Source: an uncultured cyanobacterium
Lineage (GTDB): Bacteria; Cyanobacteriota; Cyanobacteriia; CACIAM-69d
Length of the DNA: 64,000 nucleotides
Reading direction: 5' to 3'
NCBI GenBank assembly: GCA_937883785.1
Contig: CALGDE010000143.1
Span: 1-64,000, forward strand
Each line of letters opens with the position of its first letter. Position 1 is the stretch's first letter. The notes under the pieces are model-generated. The model was given only the letters and a program-made list of their open reading frames with translations, did not search any database and had not been told where the DNA came from. The position numbers were made by a program, and so were the translations under genes. This document shows positions 24,175 through 30,611 of this stretch, one piece after another.

Positions 24175-26205
24175 TTATGATTGCAAGCGTTTAAATAATT
24201 CAACAAACTCCAGCGGTATCATCTCTGGGTGATCATTGAATACTTTGTTGATAATTTCTGACTTGAGATCATTTTCTCTTCGACAACTGCATAAAGGCTT
24301 AAACGCATCTTTCAAGGTCTTTTCTAAAAAATGACCTTGAATTCTCAGAAACCAATTTGGAATATTTATGGAAATCCCACCGTAGTAGCTGCACTCCCGC
24401 AATGAGTCATCATCATCTATCGCTTTCCTTGCCGCAATCAAGTGGTTATCTTCTTTCGAGCTTGGTAACTGCGTTGAACTTATTGATGTCTTAACTTTCT
24501 CCACCAAGAGGTTAGCCATGTCTTGTAAACGTCCATTATCCAACCTTTTAATGTCTGAATGTATTTCGCCCTCTTTTAAGCCAAACATTCTCCCCATTGA
24601 ATGTTTCTCCCTTACTAGAAAGGTGATAATTGCTAATGGATCTAAAATAAAATTCTCAATACTGTACCTGCTGCTTTGACCTATAACTTTTATTCTTTCA
24701 CTTTCTTTTTCTCTCAAATCCCAGTCAACAACTCCGTAAATACTATCGTTTCCGAATTCATTCAGCGCCTTCACTACTTCTTTGACTTGATCACAGTTTT
24801 CTCCACTGCACTTAATGAAGTGAATTGACCTTTGAAACAAGTCTGAATCATCAGATTCAACGCGCCTCAAGATTGCATAGATTTGCTCATAATTAGTTAC
24901 ATCATATTTGCTTTCTACAAAGACCTGTCTTCGACTAACAGGATCAATACTAAGAGTTGGGATTCCCGCCGTGAGAACTGATAGAGCCTTATCTTTGGAT
25001 ACCTTTAATATCCTGTCTTCATCACTGCCTCTTCTATTCATAAGGTACAAAGACTCTTCGGAAGCCAAAGCAACTGTAGAGGGGGAATGAGTAGTCATTA
25101 TGACCTTTATTCCTTGTTCCATAACAAGGTTCCTCTCAATGATTTGCAAAAGAGATCGGGTCATTGAAGGGTGGAGGTGAGCGTCAATCTCGTCGAGCAA
25201 AAGTACATCTGGATATCTAGTTATATGTCTCTTATCCTGTGAGTGATGAAGACACAGAATAAAAGACATAATTATACGTTCACCTGACGATAGGTCTTGG
25301 AAATTAATACTCAGCTTTTCGTCTTTATGTCTTAAAGATGGCTGATAAGGAATATCATAGTTGGGCTCAGGGATACTTATTCTGAAGTCAAAATCAGCAT
25401 CACTCAGCATCTGGTTGAGAGAAGTCCAAGGTGGTGGTCCATACTCCTCGAAAAATTCAACATCGCTTAAAAAATTACTATCAGTTTCTCCTTCTGATTC
25501 AGCTAAATATTTTCTAAATTTATTTTTGTATCTCAGTTCTCGGTAGCCTACCAGTATCTCCGACAAAGAATGTTGAAATATTTCAGAAGAAGATTTTATC
25601 TCCGAAAAGTTTGTGTAGAAATCCTTTTCAGTAACTAACAGTATACTTTTCTTTGATTTTCTCAAAATACTCTTAATCACTTCCTTTCTTTCTTGAACTC
25701 CGTTTGAAAAGACTCCCAGAATGCGTTTTTCCGACTCTAATATGATTGATTGTAAGGAATCAATGGCGGCTTTTTTTACTTTCTCACTTTGGGAGTTTGA
25801 ATTTATAAAATCCAGAACTTTTTCCACACTTTCAAACTCTATATTGAACTGACGCCTTGCTGTCTCTACAAGGTAATTTCCCCTACTCTTCAACTCGACA
25901 CTTAGGCTTTGCCAAAGTCCTTCTTTGACTCTCTCTACTGAGTCTCGTTGGAAAATAGCTGGATTACCAGGAGCCAAACTGGACGACTGAAACAAGCGAA
26001 TATCCTTGAGCTGGGATTTCTGGCCAATTCCGACATTATTACGATTCTTGTCAACACCAAAAACCTGGAGATTCTGACGGCTAATTGCTTCAATAAAATG
26101 CGTCTTCCCCGCTCCGTTAATTCCCGTCAAGACTGTGAAATCGCCAAGACTAGCATTCTCTAGCTTATCGATAGATTTATATTTAGTCTTAAATCTAATC
26201 TCCAT
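24175..26205 (-). CDS. OLD-like AAA/ABC ATPase with probable TOPRIM nuclease domain
   Basis: A 676-residue protein. The ABC-class ATPase half has Walker A GINGAGKT (residues 28-35), an ABC signature LSSGERI (about 305), Walker B DVLLLDEIDAHLHPS (about 330-345), and an H-loop TTHSPS. The insert between them is long and helical. The second half opens with VFVESKYD (about 428-436) and then GVVDWDLR (about 491-498); these look like the Glu and DxD of a TOPRIM fold, as in OLD nucleases. The gene is visibly AT-richer than its neighbours and uses different codons, suggesting transfer. OLD-type proteins are often antiphage. No helicase, reverse transcriptase or other partner is adjacent. The TOPRIM call is by motif only; a DUF4435-like domain is an alternative. 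Confidence 0.75.
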   Translation of the reverse strand: MEIRFKTKYKSIDKLENASLGDFTVLTGINGAGKTHFIEAISRQNLQVFGVDKNRNNVGIGQKSQLKDIRLFQSSSLAPGNPAIFQRDSVERVKEGLWQSLSVELKSRGNYLVETARRQFNIEFESVEKVLDFINSNSQSEKVKKAAIDSLQSIILESEKRILGVFSNGVQERKEVIKSILRKSKKSILLVTEKDFYTNFSEIKSSSEIFQHSLSEILVGYRELRYKNKFRKYLAESEGETDSNFLSDVEFFEEYGPPPWTSLNQMLSDADFDFRISIPEPNYDIPYQPSLRHKDEKLSINFQDLSSGERIIMSFILCLHHSQDKRHITRYPDVLLLDEIDAHLHPSMTRSLLQIIERNLVMEQGIKVIMTTHSPSTVALASEESLYLMNRRGSDEDRILKVSKDKALSVLTAGIPTLSIDPVSRRQVFVESKYDVTNYEQIYAILRRVESDDSDLFQRSIHFIKCSGENCDQVKEVVKALNEFGNDSIYGVVDWDLREKESERIKVIGQSSRYSIENFILDPLAIITFLVREKHSMGRMFGLKEGEIHSDIKRLDNGRLQDMANLLVEKVKTSISSTQLPSSKEDNHLIAARKAIDDDDSLRECSYYGGISINIPNWFLRIQGHFLEKTLKDAFKPLCSCRRENDLKSEIINKVFNDHPEMIPLEFVELFKRLQS

Positions 26206-26420
26206 GGTTTTTATTGAAGGATGGCACCAACCTCCAAGCAGTAGTTAATCCTTAACTTTGACTGCAATGAGAGCTATCTTAGTATTCTCATTGAAACAGA
26301 TCGCATTAGAAATCACTTTAACTAAATTTAGAAGAAAAGATTCTAATTACTTATTTTTTCCAGCGTACTAGCACAAAAAACCATTCACAATCCACAAAAA
26401 ATCATGTGATGCTGCTTAAA

Positions 26421-26470
26421 AATGAAGATCGACGAAAAGTTGCCTTTATCCGTCGATCTTCATTACTTTT
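26421..26470 (-). terminator. Strong hairpin terminator after the arginine dihydrolase gene
   Basis: Perfect 14-bp inverted repeat AATGAAGATCGACG / CGTCGATCTTCATT. Read on the minus strand it is followed by TTTAAG. It lies 25-68 bases downstream of the stop of the agrE-type gene and insulates it from the OLD-like gene. Confidence 0.8.
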
Positions 26471-26488
26471 CCTATTTAAGTTCTAGTT

Positions 26489-28615
26489 TTAGGCATGAAC
26501 TAACTGGTAAGGAGCCGTGAGCTTCTCAAGCTGTTGCACCAACAGGCTGAGGAACAGACCCACGTCGGTCACCACACCCACGGACTCCAGGGAGCCCCGA
26601 TCCGCCAGCTTGGTAACCACAGCAGGATTGATATCCACACACACCAGCTTCACACCAGCGGGGGTCATATTGCCCACACCAATGGAGTGGAGCATAGACG
26701 ACAGCATTAGAATCATATCTGCCCCTTGCACCTGCTCGGCGTATTGCTCCTGGGCGATCACCATATCGGTAACCGTGTCCGGCAGGGGACCGTCGTCGCG
26801 GATGGATCCCGCCAGCACAAAGGGCACATCATTTTTAACGCACTCATACATCACCCCCTGGTCAATTGCCCCGGCTTCCACCGCTTTGGCAATATTGCCG
26901 TGGCGACGGATGGTATTAATGGTTTTTAGGTGATGTCGGTGACCGCCCCGTACGGCGACACCTTGTTTCATATCCACGCCGAGGGAGGTGCCCATGGTGG
27001 CTTGCTCAATGTCGTGGACGGCGATCGCATTGCCCCCCAACAAACTGTGAATATAGCCATCGCGAATTAGTCCAGAAAGGTGCTCCGCGCCGCCGGTATG
27101 AATGACCACCGGACCAGCAACCACTACGGTTTTGCCGCCGCGATCGCGAATTTGGCGCAGTTCCCAGGCGATTTGCTCCACCACCAGCTCCACCCGACGC
27201 TCACTGGAAACGCCGTTAGCCATAAAGGCAAATTCTTGGGAGTTGGCCGATTTACTGGTGTCGCGCCCGGTGATTTTCCGGTTGGTACGAATACCGTCCA
27301 CGCCCACCACCACCGATTCGCCGTCCACCAAATCCCGCAGCACCTTGCACTGGGCTTGGATGGGACCGGAGCCATTAAGACCAGTAATGGCGATCGCCCC
27401 GTCCATACGCTGATTTTCCACCCGGATCCACTGCCCGTTAATGCGCACTTCGGTGGGGTAAATGGTGCTCACATAGAAATCGTCGGGAGCCACGCCGGTT
27501 TTGGTCACACCCTCCAGCACCGCGTCCTTTTGATCTTCTTCGGTGGGAGCGATCGCGCCAATTTCAATGAGCTGACTTACCAGCTCTTCCATCACCGAGT
27601 GGGACGGTGCCGTCAGCTTAATGCGGGCCGAGGACTCACTATTGCGCTGTTCTCCCAGATCAAAATTCAGCACCTGGAAGCTGCCGCCCCCTTCCACAAT
27701 TAAATCCAGCGCCCGGCTAACCACCCCGGCGTCTAGCAAATGACCACGCATTTCCAACACTCGACTTTCCAAAGTCAGCGACGCATGGCGGTCCGGCATA
27801 ATCGGCTCCGTCACCCGCAAGGTGAGGCACTTGGACGCACCGCCTGCCTTAAGAAATTCCGTTAGGGGCGTTTCCACCAGCTCAAACCCAGCCTTCGTCA
27901 ACCTGGAACGTAACTCGGCGCTGGCTTTGTTCATCACCACCGTGTCGCCAATATTCACCGCGTTGCAGGCAAAATTCACCGCGTCTGCTTCGGCGATCGC
28001 AATACGCTTACTGGCAGGCACCCGTCCTTCAATCACCCGGTTGGAATACCCATCAAAGGCGGCAGGATAGTACAGCAGATAGCCCCCCTGGAGCGGGCAA
28101 AAACAGGTGTCCAAATGGTAGAAGCGATCATCCACCAAATGCAGCGACAACACCTCAATATCCAGCCACTCCGCCAAATAGCCATGGGAAGCCAGCTCAG
28201 AGCGGAACCCATAACCTGCCCACAGCCAACGCCCTTCCCGGTCAAACAGAGCATCGCCGGCACCCTCAAAGGGCAAGTCCTGCGGCAGCTCATACGCCGT
28301 AAAACCGTTTTCCTCAAACCATGCCTTAAAGTAAGGCTCCTCCCCCTGGCGCTCCGGATGGTAAAACCGGCTGACCACCGCCTTATCGCCCAACACCAGA
28401 CCGGCATTGGCGGTGAATACCATATCAGGCCAGCCCTTCGCCGGGGGCACCAAATCCACGATCACCCGGTCCTTGATAATCTGATATAGATTTTGCCACT
28501 GCTCCACGGCGCGATCTTGGGACGACTTATGAATATTGCCCTCCATCCAGGGATTAATGATGTAGTCCACGTCGTAGTGATCCGGGGCGCACATCAAAAA
28601 GCGAAGTTCAGTCAT
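26489..28615 (-). CDS. argZ: Bifunctional arginine dihydrolase / ornithine cyclodeaminase-type enzyme (AgrE/ArgZ)
   Basis: A 708-residue protein. The N-terminal ~280 residues are a guanidine-group-modifying (amidinotransferase-like) domain with the motif GGASKCLTLR carrying the catalytic Cys263. Cyanobacterial ArgZ/AgrE uses this domain to convert arginine to ornithine, two ammonia and CO2. The middle and C-terminal parts match the LOR/SDH and TIGR00300 regions, with GGKTVVVAGPVVIHTGGAEH (about residue 500) suggesting a Rossmann NAD site. In Anabaena AgrE this part converts ornithine to proline; in Synechocystis ArgZ that second activity is not established. The enzyme opens the arginine/cyanophycin nitrogen-release route. 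It is monocistronic with its own terminator. Confidence 0.9.
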   Translation of the reverse strand: MTELRFLMCAPDHYDVDYIINPWMEGNIHKSSQDRAVEQWQNLYQIIKDRVIVDLVPPAKGWPDMVFTANAGLVLGDKAVVSRFYHPERQGEEPYFKAWFEENGFTAYELPQDLPFEGAGDALFDREGRWLWAGYGFRSELASHGYLAEWLDIEVLSLHLVDDRFYHLDTCFCPLQGGYLLYYPAAFDGYSNRVIEGRVPASKRIAIAEADAVNFACNAVNIGDTVVMNKASAELRSRLTKAGFELVETPLTEFLKAGGASKCLTLRVTEPIMPDRHASLTLESRVLEMRGHLLDAGVVSRALDLIVEGGGSFQVLNFDLGEQRNSESSARIKLTAPSHSVMEELVSQLIEIGAIAPTEEDQKDAVLEGVTKTGVAPDDFYVSTIYPTEVRINGQWIRVENQRMDGAIAITGLNGSGPIQAQCKVLRDLVDGESVVVGVDGIRTNRKITGRDTSKSANSQEFAFMANGVSSERRVELVVEQIAWELRQIRDRGGKTVVVAGPVVIHTGGAEHLSGLIRDGYIHSLLGGNAIAVHDIEQATMGTSLGVDMKQGVAVRGGHRHHLKTINTIRRHGNIAKAVEAGAIDQGVMYECVKNDVPFVLAGSIRDDGPLPDTVTDMVIAQEQYAEQVQGADMILMLSSMLHSIGVGNMTPAGVKLVCVDINPAVVTKLADRGSLESVGVVTDVGLFLSLLVQQLEKLTAPYQLVHA

Positions 28616-30041: not shown

Positions 30042-30611
30042 CTAAAAACCAGAGAACAGCGCCCCGAGGATTAAACAGGCGAGGCAACTTAGTCCAAAAA
30101 TCATTGAGCCGTAGGCATATTGCAGTAGTGTGTATTTCTTCTGTAGAACCAGTCCGGTCTTATAAATATCTAAAAGAAACAGTCGTCGCACTTTATTGAT
30201 GTCGTTGATGTTGTTGAACATCGTTTCAACGAATTTCTCCTCTGAAAGCTGTAAGTATGTGCCAAAGAAGATTGGATTGGGTTTAACTGGTTTGACCTTT
30301 TTTTTCTGCTTCTTGAAGGGAGAGGTGACATTCTTAGGGAAAATCACCAAAAGCCCTAAACCAATGGTTACAAACTCGGCAATTAAAAACATAAAAAACA
30401 ACGCCAGCAGTGGAGGACTAAAGTTTTTTATGGAGTCGAGATTGGTGGACAGGATCGTAATGACAACGGCGACGATGCTGATCAGGATATTGGCTTTCTG
30501 ATCGGCGAGGGTAATCAGCTGAGTTTGATTTTGATGAATACCGCGCAGCAAGTAGATGGTCTCGCGACCAGGAAAGCTTTCTTTGGGTCTGGGAACGAGA
30601 TGAAGAGCCAT
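30042..30611 (-). CDS. PycTM/DUF5706-type membrane protein (Pycsar effector family)
   Basis: A 189-residue protein with three to four hydrophobic segments (about 40-58, 66-90, 165-187). The N-terminal pattern LLRGIHQNQTQLITLADQKA followed by NILISIVAVV matches the DUF5706/PycTM signature, where a conserved Asp and Lys (ADxKAN) precede TM1. The C-terminal block NPIFFGTYLQLSEEKF, then LDIYKTGLVLQKKYTLLQYA, is equally characteristic. In Pycsar defence, such proteins disrupt the inner membrane when a cCMP/cUMP cyclase (PycC) is activated. Here no cyclase is adjacent. A Lys-rich loop (FKKQKKKVKP) lies between the halves. It sits between, and opposite to, the GldF- and GldG-like genes, as an insertion would. 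Function in this host is inferred only from family. Confidence 0.8.
   Translation of the reverse strand: MALHLVPRPKESFPGRETIYLLRGIHQNQTQLITLADQKANILISIVAVVITILSTNLDSIKNFSPPLLALFFMFLIAEFVTIGLGLLVIFPKNVTSPFKKQKKKVKPVKPNPIFFGTYLQLSEEKFVETMFNNINDINKVRRLFLLDIYKTGLVLQKKYTLLQYAYGSMIFGLSCLACLILGALFSGF

Follow-up and report, generated by a model that had tools for sequence, protein, structure and literature searches.

The closest described counterpart of the gene considered here is PARIS, in which an ABC ATPase (AriA) is combined with a DUF4435/TOPRIM nuclease (AriB), as in E. coli B185 (8ux9, 8v45-8v49). PARIS was detected in about 5% of genomes, and ariAB may be split over two genes or fused into one, the latter being the "loner" PARIS described by Rousset et al. 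2022 (PMC9122126). In E. coli, defence requires both the ATPase and the TOPRIM residues (PMC9122126), the trigger is provided by anti-restriction DNA mimics such as Ocr, and in the two-gene system AriB is released and then dimerises (PMC9122126, PMC12409363, PMC11455837). AriB itself is a two-metal TOPRIM tRNase (PMC12409363). A 2023 review left it as a question whether fused AriAB forms a class of its own or follows a Class 1 OLD-like mode (PMC10568477). Here we describe a gene in a 64,000-nucleotide stretch of DNA from an uncultured cyanobacterium (the window, meaning the whole stretch that was analysed) that is probably a horizontally acquired gene for an anti-phage protein of the PARIS type, with AriA and AriB fused in one polypeptide.

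One intact gene carries an ATPase half and a TOPRIM half

The gene occupies positions 24175..26205 on the minus strand of the window, starts with ATG and runs for 676 codons with zero internal stops. ORF reading and domain matches identify it as an AriAB-like ATPase-TOPRIM gene, intact, with ATPase and TOPRIM on one chain and present as one copy in its own genome. The ABC/OLD-type ATPase motifs recognised in a first-pass annotation of the bare sequence are found at the positions named there, with Walker A (GINGAGKT) at aa 28–35, the signature (LSSGERI) at aa 305–311, Walker B (LLLDEIDAHLHPS) at aa 335–347 and TTHSPS at aa 371–376; the motifs of the TOPRIM half, VFVESKYD and GVVDWDLR, fall at aa 428–435 and 491–498.

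The N-terminal ABC/AAA_21-AAA_15 ATPase half (about aa 1–419; 24949..26205, minus strand) was delimited by Pfam, PADLOC, AlphaFold2 (AF2) and conservation. Its key residues are G28xNGxGK34, LSSGE 305–309, D338E339 and H373, and in the AF2 secondary structure a helical insert at about aa 87–237 separates Walker A from the signature. Pfam assigns AAA_21 (71.5 bits, cut-off 27) and AAA_15 (55 bits) to the full protein, and the PADLOC models ATPase-Toprim_I-B, mad3, AriA and fused AriAB score 71.6, 71.5, 70.4 and 63.8 bits, respectively. Because several PADLOC models score alike on the whole protein, the ATPase half alone does not settle the family. A profile of this half matches AriA chains with E of about 8e-11, retron PtuA chains fit it slightly better than AriA, and the full-length model retrieves retron I-A PtuA, cohesin heads, TsOLD, AriA, GajA and others in Foldseek, via the ATPase.

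The C-terminal half resembles AriB

Profiles, AF2, Foldseek and conservation define the C-terminal half (aa 419–676; 24178..24951, minus strand) as AriB/DUF4435-type, with a TOPRIM core (E431, D435, D494xD496, E517-N518) and, after it, a helical tail. Scanned alone, this half matches DUF4435 at 31.4–31.6 bits (Pfam cut-off 27) and the AriB model at 33.1–33.6 bits, and DUF4435 reaches 28.5 bits in a six-frame genome search; it is missing from the Pfam scan of the full-length window protein, and the DUF4435 match is thus marginal. Among 45 relatives, DUF4435 is reached by 4 full-length sequences and, at E≤0.01, by 16 isolated C-termini, and the isolated C-termini match AriAB in 26 cases, AriB in 22 and retron I-B in 1. 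Since DUF4435 is found in few relatives, and not in the full-length scan, the protein is only distantly related to AriB. The fused AriAB model (PADLOC PDLC02981), which has the domain content and order of the window protein, matches all 45 aligned relatives. In the window protein it covers aa 8–565 and ends there, leaving a conserved tail with H625 uncovered. A profile of the C-terminal half has no match among PDB sequences, AriB included, so the link to the solved AriB chains comes from fold comparison only.

For that comparison, AF2 models (monomer only) were built on the 45-sequence alignment. The full-length model has a pLDDT of 89.3 and a pTM of 0.60, which leaves the relative placement of the two halves unsure. 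The C-terminal 258 residues were modelled with a pLDDT of 95.3 and a pTM of 0.92, and form a beta-alpha-beta-alpha-beta, TOPRIM-like core, as the motifs of the second half had led the first-pass annotation to propose. A Foldseek search with the C-terminal model against 350,542 PDB chains gave just two matches at E≤0.001, each an AriB chain from a PARIS complex (8ux9_A, E=1.1e-4; 8v46_D, E=7.2e-4; probability 1.00 each), making PARIS AriB the model's best fold match among all solved chains; the third-best match has E=0.03 and a probability of 0.15. The TM-scores to the AriB chains are low (0.39–0.41), so either the likeness is local or the domain placement differs. A fold search against BFVD returned nothing significant.

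These results bear on the initial label "OLD-like", which holds for the ATPase and fails for the second half. A Class 1 OLD nuclease would be a solitary ABC ATPase-TOPRIM dimer that degrades or nicks DNA, and the window gene shares both domain order and solitary arrangement with P2 Old and TsOLD (6p74); the PADLOC Old model scores 44.4 bits across aa 270–508, and 6p74 is retrieved at E=1.7e-5 with the full-length model. That full-length match, however, is carried by the ATPase half. The isolated C-terminal half has no match at E≤0.01 to OLD (including Old and the OLD TOPRIM), GajA or retron models, whereas AriB and DUF4435 are matched, and its sole significant fold matches are AriB chains. The profile searches returned AAA_15/AAA_21 and, from the C-terminal half alone, DUF4435, but not an OLD TOPRIM, and what the gene shares with Class 1 OLD is the solitary ABC ATPase and a C-terminal TOPRIM, not the OLD-type TOPRIM, which is unlike its own by profile and by fold. 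We consider an OLD nuclease improbable. As the C-terminal half is AriB/DUF4435-type by both profile and fold, the protein is better described as a fused AriA-AriB than as an OLD protein proper, and its membership of the PARIS-type family is likely. By its predicted domains, the gene falls within the published definition of fused PARIS (AAA_15/AAA_21 plus DUF4435; thresholds of 32 bits for AAA_15 and 27 bits for AAA_21 in PMC9122126, and a DUF4435 cut-off of 27 bits), marginally so for DUF4435.

Conservation follows both putative active sites. In the 45-member alignment, G28, N30, G31, G33, K34, S306, G308, E309, D338, E339, H345 and H373 of the ATPase half are invariant, as are E431, D494, D496 and H625 of the C-terminal half, while D435, E517 and N518 exceed 90%; in a looser 60-member set the TOPRIM acids are 97–98% conserved. 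The acidic set E431/D435/D494/D496/E517 is as expected of a metal-dependent TOPRIM fold, and the ATPase (Walker A/B, signature) and TOPRIM residues are all intact in the window protein. The tail residue H625 is conserved like the putative catalytic acids across the 45 sequences.

The ATPase half also occurs with other TOPRIM types

Twelve loci match the window protein via the ATPase half only, and carry TOPRIM-like domains of other kinds at the C-terminus. One is a short WDCD type (ITEG.NT, VWDCD; loci L075, L078, L084, L085, L135 and L020), and the other a TEGITDK/FDFD type (LFTEGITDK, ALFDFD; loci L082, L092, L093, L097, L143 and L145). Retron I-C RT-TOPRIM profiles weakly matched (E about 4e-4 to 5e-3) two of the three tested loci of the TEGITDK/FDFD type or its kin, plus one of the WDCD type. 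The ATPase family (25–43% identity) is joined in different genomes to at least three TOPRIM types, namely AriB-like, WDCD and TEGITDK/FDFD, and from the sequences of this small set of 12 loci sensor and effector appear interchangeable. The further idea of the ATPase half as a sensor platform onto which different nucleases can be exchanged, within a PARIS-like system encoded by one gene, is speculative and we think it rather unlikely.

Composition and surroundings of the gene

The impression that the gene differs in composition from its neighbours is borne out by its GC (0.380) and GC3 (0.365), both the lowest among the 41 window ORFs of at least 150 aa. The remaining 40, which served as the baseline, have a GC of 0.541 ± 0.035 and a GC3 of 0.593 ± 0.059, giving z values of −4.6 and −3.9. 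Codon usage is a less striking part of this contrast: the codon-choice distance (0.142) is raised, but not extreme, and is exceeded by several ORFs, mostly short. The AT-rich block spans about 24.1 to 26.48 kb. The coordinates agree with the position first described, between a DUF3493 gene and argZ: the DUF3493 stop (24143) and that of the 676-aa gene (24175) form a convergent pair with 31 bases between, and argZ (26489–28615, minus strand) lies upstream on the same strand. The intervening 283 bases (26206..26488) are AT-rich and would be the expected promoter region of the ATPase-TOPRIM gene; a search for a sigma-70-like promoter gave no minus-strand match in this interval. A perfect 14-bp inverted repeat within it (AATGAAGATCGACG...CGTCGATCTTCATT, 26421..26464), unique in the genome, probably terminates transcription of argZ and does not belong to the candidate defence gene.

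The flanks consist of TPS-secretion and ABC-permease genes in addition to DUF3493 and argZ. Reading of the ORFs there revealed neither an integrase nor a tRNA, and a search for long direct repeats on the two sides of the 676-aa gene was negative. Elsewhere in the window, a small gene at 30042–30611 (minus strand, GC 0.43) matches PycTM (Pfam PF18967, E=1.3e-15), a family that takes its name from the Pycsar effector; a Pycsar-type cyclase was not seen beside it. A clear homologue near argZ in a same-genus contig (L046, about 341–907) indicates that this PycTM gene is resident and not recently gained.

The neighbourhood also speaks to the possibility that the protein serves a multi-gene system of the retron or Septu kind as its effector and needs a partner. 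Its ATPase half is closely similar to that of the retron type I-B ATPase-TOPRIM, whose PADLOC model scores 71.6 bits on the full protein, and is near the structures of PtuA (retron I-A/Septu). Those systems have an RT, ncRNA or HNH partner, whereas the neighbouring window ORFs include neither a reverse transcriptase nor a helicase or HNH nuclease; the UvrD-like GajB helicase of Gabija is likewise not adjacent, the neighbours being DUF3493 and argZ. Across 45 homologous neighbourhoods we found no conserved partner gene and no reverse transcriptase among the recurrent neighbours, the commonest neighbour family (a DNA adenine methylase-like prophage gene, by sequence motifs only) being present at 5 loci. 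The C-terminal half differs as well, with the single I-B match among isolated C-termini set against the far more frequent AriAB and AriB matches. A partner-dependent effector of this kind is highly improbable. As neighbours are not common to the relatives, the gene appears to act alone, in agreement with its first description as solitary.

A sporadic family on plasmids and in predicted viral contigs

Neither the searched genomes of its own genus and family nor the 59 nearest genomes yielded a true relative, and the matches there are short ATPase-signature stretches. In a class sample of 390 genomes, four (G203, G107, G251 and G202) have full-length or nearly full-length relatives (33–43%), and a fifth (G329) has only the ATPase half in common. 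Besides its intact relative, G202 carries a second copy of the ATPase half (L024, G202:C126:31717-32991) with an in-frame TGA, which is apparently decaying. Since the nearest relatives come from cyanobacteria, the gene has likely been exchanged within the phylum. Plasmid relatives occur in Planktothrix (38%), Rhizobium, Croceicoccus, where the gene adjoins the R and S subunits of type I restriction, and Caballeronia, where it is flanked by two TIR-domain genes. A scan of genome contigs with the single protein as query gave no relative, whereas profile scans gave 57 loci in genomes of many phyla, and a further 48 in predicted viral contigs (IMG/VR), the latter including some weak ATPase-only matches. 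As tblastn against 50,697 phage records gave no match and viral relatives come only from IMG/VR predicted contigs, prophage carriage rests on the IMG/VR calls.

The empty insertion site was not recovered, with no clean presence/absence pair in either G001 or G002. In G001, the one same-genus genome, argZ is 93% identical, the contig stops 44 bases past argZ, and the DUF3493 gene and upstream flank were not found. In G002, argZ and DUF3493 are on separate contigs, argZ deep within one of 803 kb, so the argZ-DUF3493 junction itself is not conserved. Judged by composition and distribution, the 676-aa gene is a horizontally acquired member of a mobile, sporadic family; rather than a locus conserved and GC-matched in its relatives, we find a gene that is missing from them and a GC outlier.

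This distribution is hard to reconcile with a non-defence, housekeeping ATPase for cellular repair or of the SMC/RecF-like type, to which the weak SMC_N and RecF-like matches of the 676-aa protein might point. The gene is missing from same-genus and same-family genomes and is an AT-rich outlier, its relatives lie on plasmids and predicted prophage contigs, and its TOPRIM is intact; we regard a housekeeping role as exceedingly improbable. The proposal of the first-pass annotation that this is a candidate defence gene is supported, as a candidate, and by analogy with PARIS the protein probably works in anti-phage defence.

Proposed mechanism and implications

If the protein works along the lines of two-gene PARIS, the ATPase halves would assemble into an oligomer, hexameric in the case of AriA, that keeps the TOPRIM inactive, and a phage protein, presumably of the anti-restriction kind, would alter this assembly. 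The TOPRIM domains would then pair and cut host RNA by a two-metal mechanism, translation would stop, and the infected cell would arrest and release no phage. That the RNA in question is tRNA, by analogy with AriB, we rate at slightly less than an even chance. The E. coli B185 system consists of two genes and releases AriB, whereas the window protein is one fused polypeptide, distant in sequence, from which release of a free AriB is impossible; with the nuclease covalently tethered, activation would occur by rearrangement.

The single-gene AriAB fusion is already described, and the window gene adds to this known kind of system a divergent new member, which by itself is of modest interest. If it works as proposed, the gene would make it possible to ask cleanly, with a single gene and also in a cyanobacterial host, how a PARIS protein whose nuclease is covalently fused gets switched on, and so address the question posed by PMC10568477. 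If the ATPase half did prove to be an exchangeable platform, swappable nucleases and activation without nuclease release would mark a distinct PARIS-like subtype.
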